IMG/VR virus record: IMGVR_UViG_3300022853_000125
Span: 1-20,216 of that record
DNA length: 20,216 nucleotides
Strand: one strand, 5' to 3'
From: a virus
Below are positions 434 through 15,607 of this stretch, piece by piece. Numbering within the stretch: position 1 is the stretch's first letter; each line of letters opens with the position of its first letter. A model generated the notes under the pieces. The model was given only the letters and a program-made list of their open reading frames with translations. It had not been told where the DNA came from and searched no databases. Position numbers and translations under genes: made by a program.

Positions 434-862
434 ATGGCAGGAAGAAAAAAGAAATTAACAGAAAAACTATTTGATAAGCTTTTAAATCTTATTGCAGATG
501 GTTTAACAATTAGAGAAGTATTCTCAAGAGATGATGTAGATTTTACCTGGCAATCTTTTAGAAACTATTTAATTAAAGATAATGTTTTAATGGATAGATA
601 TATCAAAGCAAAAGAATTGGCAGTTGATCTAAGACTTTCAGAGCTGGAAGACAAAAGAAAAGAACTAGAAATTAAAATAGAGTCTGGTGAATTAGATCCA
701 AAGGCAGCTCAGAACTTAGTAAACCTATATAAAATAATCGTTGCTAGTTCTCAATGGTCTGCAAGTAAGCTAAATGCTAAGAGATATGGTAAATCTGCAG
801 AGGTTTTAAGCATTAACTCTGATAAGAATCAACCATTAACCATCTCATGGTCTAAACCATAG
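434..862 (+). CDS. terS: Terminase small subunit, Sf6 gp1-like
   Basis: 142 residues, very close to the usual length of the Sf6-type small terminase (about 140). The small subunit forms a ring that recognises the packaging start site in concatemeric DNA and hands it to the large subunit. Residues 8-50 form a helix-turn-helix-like N-terminus (LFDKLLNLIADGLTIREVF, then WQSFRNYL), residues 55-105 a long charged helical oligomerisation region, and SKLNAKRYGKS (111-121) matches the conserved R-x-x-A-x-x-x-N-P-R-K-Y-G signature late in Sf6 gp1. Position directly before the large terminase supports the call. No strong ribosome binding site precedes the ATG, which follows a small hairpin. The assignment is from motif resemblance and context. 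Confidence 0.85.
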   Translation: MAGRKKKLTEKLFDKLLNLIADGLTIREVFSRDDVDFTWQSFRNYLIKDNVLMDRYIKAKELAVDLRLSELEDKRKELEIKIESGELDPKAAQNLVNLYKIIVASSQWSASKLNAKRYGKSAEVLSINSDKNQPLTISWSKP

Positions 863-1050: not shown

Positions 1051-1071
1051 CCGATAACTATTAATTATCGG
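1051..1071. repeat. Perfect 7-bp inverted repeat CCGATAA/TTATCGG
   Basis: CCGATAA (1051-1057) and TTATCGG (1065-1071) pair perfectly around the loop CTATTAA. No T run follows, so it does not look like an intrinsic terminator. It may be an operator or a terminase-binding dyad. The right arm overlaps a GGTAAATAGG copy. Confidence 0.45.
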
Positions 1072-1217
1072 TAAATAGGTAACGATAGTCTTAAATTATC
1101 ACTATAAAAGTATAGGTTGTATTTGAACCTTAATTGGTAAATAGGGGGGGTTTATAAGTGCCTATACCCATTTTTTGAACTACCTCTTAGAATAATGTTG
1201 ATGTATGGTACAAACAC

Positions 1218-1403
1218 ATGGATGATAAATTCTTAAAAACAACAATCTTTATAGTCAAAAATAAGACTACAAAAAAACCAATAGTTATTACTCACTTTGA
1301 AGGGTTCAGGGATAAAGCTGATGCTGAAGACTTTTCATTGTTTATTAAAGAACAGTTTGTCCTGGAAGAAGATTTTTTAAATCAAAACAAAACTTTACAT
1401 TAG
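1218..1403 (+). CDS. Small hypothetical protein between terS and terL
   Basis: 61 residues with a beta-rich N-terminus (TTIFIVKNKTTKKPIVITHF), then an acidic amphipathic helix (KADAEDFSLFIKEQFVLEEDFLNQ). The start is the first ATG in frame; no clear ribosome binding site precedes it. The stop TAG at 1401-1403 runs directly into a tract of eight G. It has the codon style of its neighbours and a clean frame from start to stop, but is too short to be certain. I do not recognise it. Placement suggests a packaging accessory or a moron-like small protein, which is inference from context only. Confidence 0.55.
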   Translation: MDDKFLKTTIFIVKNKTTKKPIVITHFEGFRDKADAEDFSLFIKEQFVLEEDFLNQNKTLH

Positions 1404-1412
1404 GGGGGGGTG
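1403..1412 (+). promoter_or_regulatory. G-run ribosome binding site of terL
   Basis: Eight G followed by TG lie 11 bases before the terL ATG. GGGGGTG can pair with the 16S tail CACCUCC with one G-U pair, so the tract may serve as an unusual Shine-Dalgarno sequence. No other purine-rich site lies in the gap. Confidence 0.35.
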
Positions 1413-1423
1413 CTTTTTAAAAT

Positions 1424-2695
1424 ATGAAACAAATAGTAATTCCATACGCACCAAGAGAAATCCAAAATTTTTTGCATGAAAAATGCGACACAAACCGTTT
1501 TAACGTAGTCATCGTTCATCGAAGGGGGGGTAAGACTGTGTTTGCTATCAACCACCTAATCAGAGCGGCTCTAACGTCCAGTAAACCCTATCCTAGATAC
1601 GCTTTCATCTCTCCATTCCGTCTGCAAGGCAAAAGTACAGCTTGGGACTATATGAAACAATTTTCTGCCACAATTCCAGGAGTTAAGTTTAATGAGTCAG
1701 AATTAAGAGTTGACTTTCCAATTAACAATTCCAGAATACAGATATTAGGTGGTGAGAATAGTGCTGCCATAAGAGGTCAATACTTTGATGGTATAGTTTG
1801 TGATGAAACTCAGAATCTTTCGCCAGACCTTTTTGATACTGTTTTAAGACCATGCCTCTCCGACAGAAAAGGTTTTGCAATATTTATTGGTACTCCAATG
1901 GGAAGAAATTGGTTCTATGAATTACATGAGAAAGCAAAATCAAACAAAGACTGGTTCACAGCTGTTTTCAAAGCTTCAGAGACTAAGATTATAGCTCAAG
2001 ACGAACTAGACGCTGCGAAACAAACTATGTCTCCAGAAAGTTATGCTCAGGAATTTGAGTGTTCTTTCCAAGCTGGAATAAGTGGTTCTTACTTTGGATC
2101 TACGATTGAAGAATTAGAGAAGAAAGGCAATATTACTAATTTTGATATAGAGGATGATTTGGAAGTTGAAACCTGGTGGGACTTAGGAATGAATGACAGT
2201 ACCGTAATAACTTTTGCACAACGAAGACCTAGTGGCGAAATTAGAATTATTGATTGTTATGAGAACTCAGGAGAGGGTTTAGAACACTACATTAATATCA
2301 TAGATAGTAAACCTTACAAATATTCAAAACATATTGCACCCCATGATATTAGAGTTAGGGAGATTGGCACTAATAAATCAAGATGGGAAACAGCAAAAGA
2401 ATTAGGACTAGAATTTGACATAGCACCCAAACTTAGTGTAGAAGACGGTATTGAACAAGTTAGAAGAATGTTGCCTAAATGCTACTTTCATAAAAACAAT
2501 TGCAATAAGCTTGTAGAAGCGTTAAAGTCATATTGTAAACGTTGGGATGAAAAAAATAATTGCTTTAGAAATAAACCTCTACACAATTGGGCATCTCACT
2601 TTTGTGATTCGATAAGATATGGTGCTGTTACAGAACCTATAGAAAGATCGGATTGGAAAAAGCCGATAAGAATTAATACAAATTATATAGTTTAA
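1424..2695 (+). CDS. terL: Terminase large subunit (packaging ATPase and nuclease)
   Basis: 423 residues, a normal to slightly short length. This motor cuts concatemeric DNA and pumps it through the portal. The N-terminal ATPase shows a Walker A-type loop HRRGGKT (32-38), Walker B with catalytic Glu IVCDE (124-128) and the coupling motif GTP (156-158). The C-terminal RNase H-like nuclease shows WWDLG with Asp253, HD at 307-308, and Asp395 in HFCDSIRYG, the usual acidic metal ligands. The frame is intact. The Walker A loop is encoded partly by seven consecutive G (1524-1530). It stops one base before the portal start and is preceded by the terS region, a standard packaging cassette. Confidence 0.95.
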   Translation: MKQIVIPYAPREIQNFLHEKCDTNRFNVVIVHRRGGKTVFAINHLIRAALTSSKPYPRYAFISPFRLQGKSTAWDYMKQFSATIPGVKFNESELRVDFPINNSRIQILGGENSAAIRGQYFDGIVCDETQNLSPDLFDTVLRPCLSDRKGFAIFIGTPMGRNWFYELHEKAKSNKDWFTAVFKASETKIIAQDELDAAKQTMSPESYAQEFECSFQAGISGSYFGSTIEELEKKGNITNFDIEDDLEVETWWDLGMNDSTVITFAQRRPSGEIRIIDCYENSGEGLEHYINIIDSKPYKYSKHIAPHDIRVREIGTNKSRWETAKELGLEFDIAPKLSVEDGIEQVRRMLPKCYFHKNNCNKLVEALKSYCKRWDEKNNCFRNKPLHNWASHFCDSIRYGAVTEPIERSDWKKPIRINTNYIV

Positions 2696-7638: not shown

Positions 7639-7667
7639 GGGGGATCTTACCTAGCGGTACTTCCCCC
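7639..7667 (+). terminator. Stem-loop between the two small head genes (no U run)
   Basis: GGGGGA (7639-7644) pairs with TCCCCC (7662-7667). Inside it TACC (7648-7651) pairs with GGTA (7656-7659) around TAGC. It is GC-rich in an AT-rich gap, but is followed by TTACTAAC rather than a T run. Like the hairpin after the capsid gene it is probably an mRNA end or processing structure. Confidence 0.5.
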
Positions 7668-14658: not shown

Positions 14659-14759
14659 TGATTAATATACCACTAAACGAAGCAAACACAGATTACCAAG
14701 CAATCCAAGAATGGATAGCTGATGGTGGAACAATAATAGATAATGGAGGTGGCGAATAA
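14658..14759 (+). CDS. 33-residue protein, paralogue of the preceding small gene
   Basis: This is a 33-residue frame, MINIPLNEANTDYQAIQEW and onward, ending DNGGGE. Residues 8-26 align with the preceding gene's motif: AN-[ST]-DYQ, then W-[LI], then a G and T. It starts in a TAATG overlap with the upstream gene and its stop TAA shares its last A with the ATG of the HNH gene, so it sits in an unbroken coupled chain. It looks like a truncated or minimal version of the same fibre-associated family. Confidence 0.6.
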   Translation: MINIPLNEANTDYQAIQEWIADGGTIIDNGGGE

Positions 14760-15607
14760 TGGCTTATATAGGCAGAGATATTTTTATAAACAATAAGTAT
14801 AAAACTTGGCATGATAATATTATAGCTAAAGCTAAAAACAGAACATTAGAAGGATATAAAGAAGTTCATCATATTATACCTAAAAGCTGTGGTGGAACTA
14901 ATGATAAATCTAACTTAGTACCTTTGGCTGCTAGAGAACATTATATAATCCATATGTTATTACCATATTTTACAGCAGGTCAAATTAAACATAAAATGTT
15001 AAATGCCTTTATATTTATGACTGCTAAATCTAAAGCTTGTAAAAGAGATTATAAAATTAACTCAAGAGTATATGAAAAATTAAAAAGTGAATTTAGTAAA
15101 TCATTAAAAGGAAGAAGATTAACTCCTGAATGGAAAGCAAAAATATCTAAAACATTAACAGGAACTAAATTACCAGAATATGTTAAAAGAAAAATTAGCT
15201 TAGGAAATATGGGTAGAAAAGTTAGCGAAAAAAACAAATTAGCTACTACTCTTCGTAATATGGGTAATAAATATAGTCTTGGAAAAAAAGTATCATTAGA
15301 AACTAGGAAAAAAATATCTATAGCACATACTGGTAAAAAACTTACAGAAGAAACTAAAGCTAAAATTAAATATGCTAGACAATTTCAAGTATGCTCTGAT
15401 GAACAAAGAAAAAATTATAGTAAAATATATTCAAATCTTATCTGGGTTAATAAAGACAATAAATCTAAAAGAGTTAATAAAGAATTGAAAAAAGATTATT
15501 TAAGTAATGGATATAAACTTGGTAGAAATATGTCTTATATGACAGGCGAAACTAGAAACTTATTATCTCAAAAAACAAAAGCCTATTGGCAAAGGAAGGT
15601 AGCATAG
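14759..15607 (+). CDS. HNH homing endonuclease with NUMOD3 repeats
   Basis: 282 residues, very basic. The HNH nuclease motif is clear: HH at 37-38 with IIPK, the central N52 with LVPL, and REH at 59-61 with a further H65. The region about 115-215 carries NUMOD3-like DNA-binding repeats (TPEWKAKISKTLTGTKL; GRKVSEKNK; SLETRKKISIAHTGKKLTEETKAKI). Such free-standing genes cut alleles lacking them and copy themselves. It starts MAYIGRD, nearly the same as the fibre starts at 13323 (MAYIGS) and 15608 (MSYIGR), although HNH proteins do not need this, so its 5' end may have been captured from a fibre gene. It ends exactly at the base before the next ATG. Confidence 0.92.
   Translation: MAYIGRDIFINNKYKTWHDNIIAKAKNRTLEGYKEVHHIIPKSCGGTNDKSNLVPLAAREHYIIHMLLPYFTAGQIKHKMLNAFIFMTAKSKACKRDYKINSRVYEKLKSEFSKSLKGRRLTPEWKAKISKTLTGTKLPEYVKRKISLGNMGRKVSEKNKLATTLRNMGNKYSLGKKVSLETRKKISIAHTGKKLTEETKAKIKYARQFQVCSDEQRKNYSKIYSNLIWVNKDNKSKRVNKELKKDYLSNGYKLGRNMSYMTGETRNLLSQKTKAYWQRKVA

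Follow-up and report, generated by a model that had tools for sequence, protein, structure and literature searches.

Shine-Dalgarno elements are usually spaced about 5-9 nt from the start codon, and the O iterons of phage lambda sit inside the O gene. The packaging cut of phage SPP1 is said, in the title of a cited work, to be precise without a requirement for sequence specificity. According to the available part of one paper, the small terminase subunit TerS of SPP1 binds pacL and pacR, and the large subunit TerL cuts in pacC (PMC6316719). In the available parts of two other papers, the 20-mer of the PaP3 cos site contains CCCC (PMC9611059, a review), and the Skadi phages carry a 125-bp direct terminal repeat within which the authors place terL (PMC10504331).

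The window analysed here is the whole stretch of 20,216 bases that makes up the virus record IMGVR_UViG_3300022853_000125, itself a fragment of that length. It is akin to Pelagibacter phage HTVC106P (Table 1), and its TerL is about 50% identical to those of the HTVC010P-type pelagiphages, referred to below as the sister group. The recorded hosts of HTVC010P- and HTVC106P-type phages are SAR11 bacteria, and phages of both types are among the commonest of the ocean. A search of the open-access literature on pelagiphage packaging, cohesive ends, poly-G cos sites and G-run ribosome-binding sites, with subscription journals outside its scope, found neither a description of the elements reported below nor the packaging or replication start of these phages, and the available parts of PMC10504331, PMC8163748, PMC6316719, PMC3310771 and PMC9611059 contain no account of the elements.

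Results

Three G runs in the terminase region

The gene order in this part of the window is terS, a non-coding gap with run 1 (site A), a 61-codon ORF, run 2 (site B), terL with run 3, portal and capsid. An earlier note on this DNA had described the three runs, each with A before it and T after it, as the only ones of their length, and recounting confirmed their positions, flanks and uniqueness: there is no other G or C run of at least six in the window, the next longest being G5 at 7639 and C5 at 4554 and 7663. With G at 17.8% of the bases, the number of G7 stretches expected per window is 0.12 from base composition, 0.16 from dinucleotides and 0.005 from trinucleotides, so that three within 390 bases are far from chance, as the note had supposed. 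The placements that it gave were also correct. Run 1 lies inside the non-coding gap 3' of terS, run 2 begins on the final stop-codon base of the 61-codon ORF, with 13 nt between its end and the terL ATG, and run 3 codes for Arg-Gly-Gly in the Walker A motif of TerL.

Table 1. Features around the G runs, in positions of the window
Feature	Position	Strand	Basis
terS (terminase small subunit, Sf6-type)	434..862	+	PHROG 1482, E 6.8e-11; Pfam PF20901 Sf6_terminase, 41 bits (cut-off 27)
Dyad 1, CCGATAA-N7-TTATCGG	1051..1071	.	Read in the sequence
Second dyad, degenerate, GATAG-N7-TTATC	1084..1100	.	Read in the sequence
Run 1 (site A), G7 then TTT	1144..1150	+	66 of 67 rows with at least G4; 56 of 67 continuing with TTT
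Core of site A, CCTATACCC; matches (G or C)n-TATACCCC, the core in the HTVC010P group	1161..1169	.	Alignments
61-codon ORF between sites A and B	1218..1403	+	Kept by both phage groups; M1, G29 and the C-terminal H61 do not vary among 39 sequences
Run 2 (site B), G8; probably the Shine-Dalgarno element of terL	1403..1410	+	Conservation, fixed spacing, anti-SD pairing
terL (terminase large subunit)	1424..2695	+	88.4% identity to HTVC106P TerL; PHROG 2, E 3.2e-30
Run 3	1524..1530	+	Walker A codons CGA AGG GGG GGT; run of at least six in 4 of 96 rows; coincidental

The earlier note had proposed a role at the DNA level common to all three runs and had asked whether relatives keep them. This was borne out in part: sites A and B are both conserved and have the 10-mer GGGGGGTTTT in common, and run 3 falls outside the set. 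The Walker A motif could be read in 96 terL genes of the clade, and the longest G stretch there is 2 in 49, 4 in 8, 5 in 35 and 7 in 4, namely the window and L001-L003, and the run was dropped as a member of any signal. GGG is scarce in the window (5 of the 384 Gly codons in the ORFs counted), and GGG GGT at the Walker A place is common across the clade. Run 3 is by all appearances a coincidence of codon choice and not part of a signal, seven G being reached because a small clade joined AGG to the GGG GGT codons. The cluster as a whole is thus probably made up of two conserved cis-signals (site B, a ribosome-binding site of terL; site A, a non-coding element for which packaging is the leading guess) and one coincidence.

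Two other places in the window drew our attention. An HNH-type homing endonuclease lies amid tail-region genes at 14759-15607 (PHROG 655, E 5.5e-40), and a GGGGG/CCCCC inverted pair, 19 nt apart, lies between two structural genes at 7639-7667; several relatives carry G6/C6 at the place matching the latter, about 6.2 kb past the terL start.

Site B and the start of terL

In 79 of 81 rows, the 40 nt that precede the terL ATG contain a run of five or more G (L034, which has too little upstream sequence, and L089 and other repeats of the same contigs were left out), with a length of six in 52 rows, five in 13, seven in 9 and eight in 5. The distance from the end of the run to the ATG is 12 nt in 73 rows, 13 in 4 and 11 in 2. 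In the complete genome of HTVC106P (36,945 bases), the G6 of site B is the sole G run of at least six.

Like a Shine-Dalgarno element, site B is complementary to the 3' end of 16S rRNA. With 14 further loci added to the set (n = 95), the best duplex was -10.4 to -12.7 kcal/mol in 92 rows, scored on the general bacterial anti-SD CCUCC and not on one read from a SAR11 genome. Runs broken by an A keep the pairing (GAGAGGGG in L017, -10.4; GAGGGAGGG in L062, -12.2); strong pairing is lost in L091-L093 (-4.2). Among the 69 genes of HTVC106P that were scored, terL has in site B the third strongest Shine-Dalgarno element. The sister group is without the site B tract and none of its 79 terL rows reaches a pairing of -8 or below, so that the strong ribosome-binding site belongs to the window's clade. 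The best-pairing stretch ends 11 nt from the start codon in 83 of the 95 rows and 10-13 nt in the rest, which is outside the usual range, and most strong Shine-Dalgarno elements of HTVC106P sit 2-9 nt from the start compared with a spacer of 11-13 nt at site B.

In some relatives three kinds of gene are found between the 61-codon ORF and terL: an N6_N4 methylase (PF01555) and MT-A70-like genes of two kinds. All nine insertion loci read have kept a G tract, then T, about 12 nt before terL, in L017 in the A-broken form given above. That the G tract stays locked to the terL start, whatever stands upstream, argues more strongly than anything else for a translation signal at site B. Several insertion loci also retain a G run after the 61-codon ORF; a TTG a few bases behind that run may be the start codon of the methylase.

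The place directly before terL is a hotspot at which methyltransferase genes of at least three kinds (PF01555, PF05063) have been inserted (e.g. L003, L004, L005, L006, L017, L019, L029, L044 and L065), and the sister-group phage HTVC100P has an annotated adenine methyltransferase near the same place. Three MT-A70-like genes carry an in-frame TGA at the Trp of the DPPW motif (L382:3943; L116:1972, on the contig of L065; L135:1972, on the contig of L029), with 158 codons open after it, and three other copies read TGG; recoding, a restart or shared decay could account for the TGA.

Site B is conserved, holds its distance to terL, preserves its pairing and is retained after insertions, and we infer that ribosomes bind it. 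The best reading of these sequence data is an unusually strong and unusually distant ribosome-binding site of terL, in which five to eight G followed by T would pair with the 3' end of 16S rRNA (ACCUCC), and the end of the run, adjoining the stop codon of the upstream ORF, would be held 11-13 nt before the start. It counts against this reading that GGAGG would serve as a Shine-Dalgarno element and yet G runs are kept almost exclusively; in addition, poly-G 18-mers make poor ribosome-binding sites in E. coli, according to the available part of PMC3310771. The same 10-mer and a similar anti-SD pairing at site A, where no gene start follows, are also left unexplained.

Site A and the non-coding region after terS

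Across the 67 rows compared (rows with less than 120 nt upstream or without an ATG were left out), the run at site A is 3 G long in 1, 4 in 9, 5 in 21, 6 in 32 and 7 in 4, and HTVC106P has only G4. About 10-20 nt past the run, the alignment shows a core such as CCTATACCC or GGTATACCC and then T's. A matching element lies at about -300 to -440 from terL in the HTVC010P group, where a G or C tract followed by TATACCCC stands in constant surroundings. The tract of this sister-group core is C in 70, G in 21 and other in 13 of 104 distinct segments, the last class being set by the search pattern and including L185, which has a G tract and a different right half, and L277, a GC-rich hit unrelated to the element. 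Its GC stretches of at least five are mostly pure G or pure C; the isolate Lederberg has C7TATACCCC, and in the isolate HTVC203P the tract is absent and only ATACCCC is left. Because the tract flips strand, an RNA role is unlikely in the HTVC010P group, and the tract looks selected as a GC duplex. Run 1 of the window would be either the homologue of this tract or an extra G6T4 beside the core, which in the alignment of the window's clade lies after run 1.

Dyads of the form GATAA-N5-8-TTATC are concentrated in the same region. In the window's clade there are 64 in 61 regions as against 3 in the remaining 469,128 bases of the same loci, and in the HTVC010P group 66 in 104 regions as against 2 in 577 kb. 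In both groups they mostly have a 7-nt spacer and lie just upstream of the GC-tract element; two exact dyads, with starts about 30-33 nt apart, are present in 14 of the 61 regions. Site A is part of a conserved non-coding element that lies between terS and the 61-codon ORF. A search of the window and ten relatives against Rfam gave no match at gathering thresholds. The 61-codon ORF was found in 76 of 82 rows, and the predicted fold of its protein (two strands followed by a helix, at a mean pLDDT of 74) had no PDB match at E 0.001 or better.

An element resembling a type II hammerhead ribozyme was seen in 13 distinct copies, upstream of terS and on the strand opposite to it, with a CTGATGA and GAAA core and varying stems (L010:33-98, minus strand; L046, L142, L358, L363, L364, L366, L375, L385, L410, L411, L412 and L418). 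The L010 copy scores 33 bits against RF02276, below the gathering score of 37 (E 2.4e-5); L015 has no match of this type, and the core pattern was not found in the window. Many relatives have a run of six or seven C some 1.3 kb upstream of terL; it was set aside, since it reads as Pro codons of an upstream ORF and is absent in the window.

A possible packaging start or replication origin

Our leading guess for site A is a candidate packaging start of the terminase, with the GC tract as cutting core between conserved flanks; recognition by the terminase, which the earlier note had also raised, is possible for site A and not for site B. As with pac and cos sites, site A adjoins the terminase genes, lying between terS and terL in the window and in HTVC106P, and a variable core stands there between conserved flanks. 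Contig ends fall in the core in 3 of 30 HTVC010P-type cases and in one window-type case (L039), although breaks at a variable tract would look alike. The 30 ends are those within 700 nt of terL, counted by hand from ranges, and exclude L187, whose locus stops short of the contig end. Of these contigs, L172 and L236 begin alike with GGTATACCCC, the start of L433 lies a few nt further inside, and L039 begins with ACCCC. On the terS side, none of 23 contig ends falls in the core (41 of 80 terS loci were entered, and 23 truly end within 1000 nt of terS). The packaging type was not settled by TerL relatives found with tblastn, and since the Skadi authors, in the part of the paper available, place terL within the terminal repeat, that repeat cannot be mapped to site A.

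An origin bound by a phage O-like initiator is almost as likely for site A as packaging. Taken as the sole function, with the dyads bound by the O-like protein beside an AT-rich stretch and the GC tract, and no packaging site, we rate it as unlikely. It fits the confinement of the dyads, mostly with a 7-nt spacer, to this region in both groups, the O-like initiator gene upstream in HTVC106P, the weak O-like match that HTVC010P has upstream in addition to terS, and the cumulative GC skew of HTVC010P, which is lowest in the first kilobase, where the site lies. Skew also follows gene direction, however; only one or two dyads are present, the lambda O iterons sit inside the O gene, and the window's clade has no cluster of DnaA boxes. 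A DnaA-type origin was rejected, with TTATCCACA in 2 of 64 regions of that clade; it occurs in 15 of 70 HTVC010P-clade regions, one box each, probably shared by descent.

One signal at both sites, and other readings

In the records of 28 relatives (563,436 bases; picked from 80 loci, mostly longer records), GGGGGGTTTT occurs at 34 places, and all 34 are at site A or B on the terL strand. This is the strongest support for a shared signal, one to which neither the Walker A run nor a G-quadruplex nor slippage would belong. The 10-mer is missing from 4 of the 28 records, the window's three nearest relatives included, because the T tract differs. Site A also pairs with the anti-SD (median -10.5), so that ribosomes might touch the same mRNA at this second place; no gene start consistently follows it. 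That A and B form one DNA or RNA signal, e.g. two terminase or regulator sites flanking the 61-codon ORF with the Shine-Dalgarno match being incidental, is nevertheless unlikely. The 34 places on one strand, the TTT after most site A runs and the A sites that read GGGGGTTTTGTTTT, like B, would all agree with it, but B stays about 12 nt from the terL start after unrelated gene insertions, tolerates changes that keep anti-SD pairing and is missing in the sister group, while 11 of 67 A rows have no TTT after the run and HTVC106P has four G there.

A more specific and quite doubtful proposal is that the terminase of these SAR11 podophages cuts in a strand-indifferent GC homopolymer. Pure G or pure C would be kept since only the composition of the duplex counts, e.g. 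for cohesive ends that are stable in an AT-rich genome; the flanking dyads and the TATACCCC half would provide recognition, and the same G6T4 word would have been reused before terL as a ribosome-binding site.

We hold it improbable that site A is an intrinsic transcription terminator in which the G run pairs with CCC ahead of a T run. CCC and then T's do follow shortly past the run in most rows, and the window reads GGGTTTATAAGTGCCTATACCCATTTTTT, but only 46 of 67 rows have ACCC or TCCC within 26 nt, no such hairpin can form in the C-type cores that make up 70 of 104 in the sister group, and folding hardly beats shuffled sequences (z averages -0.45 across 45 distinct sites and is below -1.5 at 11). 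A stable GC hairpin before a U tract was therefore not found at site A.

Two suggestions of the earlier note found no support. No set of four G2 or G3 tracts with loops of 1-12 nt starts in 1100-1560, which disposes of a G-quadruplex half. As for a slippage hotspot, no conserved frame crosses run 1 and run 2 sits between two ORFs; a hidden frame or frameshift through site A was rejected too, the region being codon-like near the 61-codon ORF in one subclade and every frame containing stops across the 67 rows, with all three frames stopped upstream of that ORF in many of them. That all three runs are chance or sequencing artefacts has next to no probability, for while run 3 lacks conservation and homopolymers are prone to error, runs 1 and 2 recur across dozens of independent contigs, run 2 is G6 in the isolate HTVC106P and the homologous tract of the isolate Lederberg is C7, so that the artefact reading, which the earlier note had allowed for, is refuted for runs 1 and 2.

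Discussion

Site A offers a compact, testable candidate that is common to both phage groups and whose G-or-C tract fits no simple RNA model. Site B, if it is a ribosome-binding site, would be a strong but distant signal kept for the gene of the packaging motor. Compared with a Shine-Dalgarno ribosome-binding site, site B shares the purine tract 5' of the start and a strong anti-SD match kept through A/G changes (in two rows); it differs in being a near-pure G run in an AT-rich genome and in its spacer of 11-13 nt.

Site A resembles pac of SPP1 (pacL-pacC-pacR) in lying at the terminase genes and in having a variable core between more conserved flanks, but it lies after terS and not at the terS start, and in the sister group its core consists of a G or C tract. 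Like cos of PaP3 it would be a GC-rich terminase site, whereas the virion-end evidence at site A is limited to a few contig ends. Lambdoid-type origins with O-protein iterons have in common with it the dyad-symmetric repeats and an O-like gene in the same cluster; in contrast, site A has one or two dyads, which stand far from the O-like gene, beyond terS.
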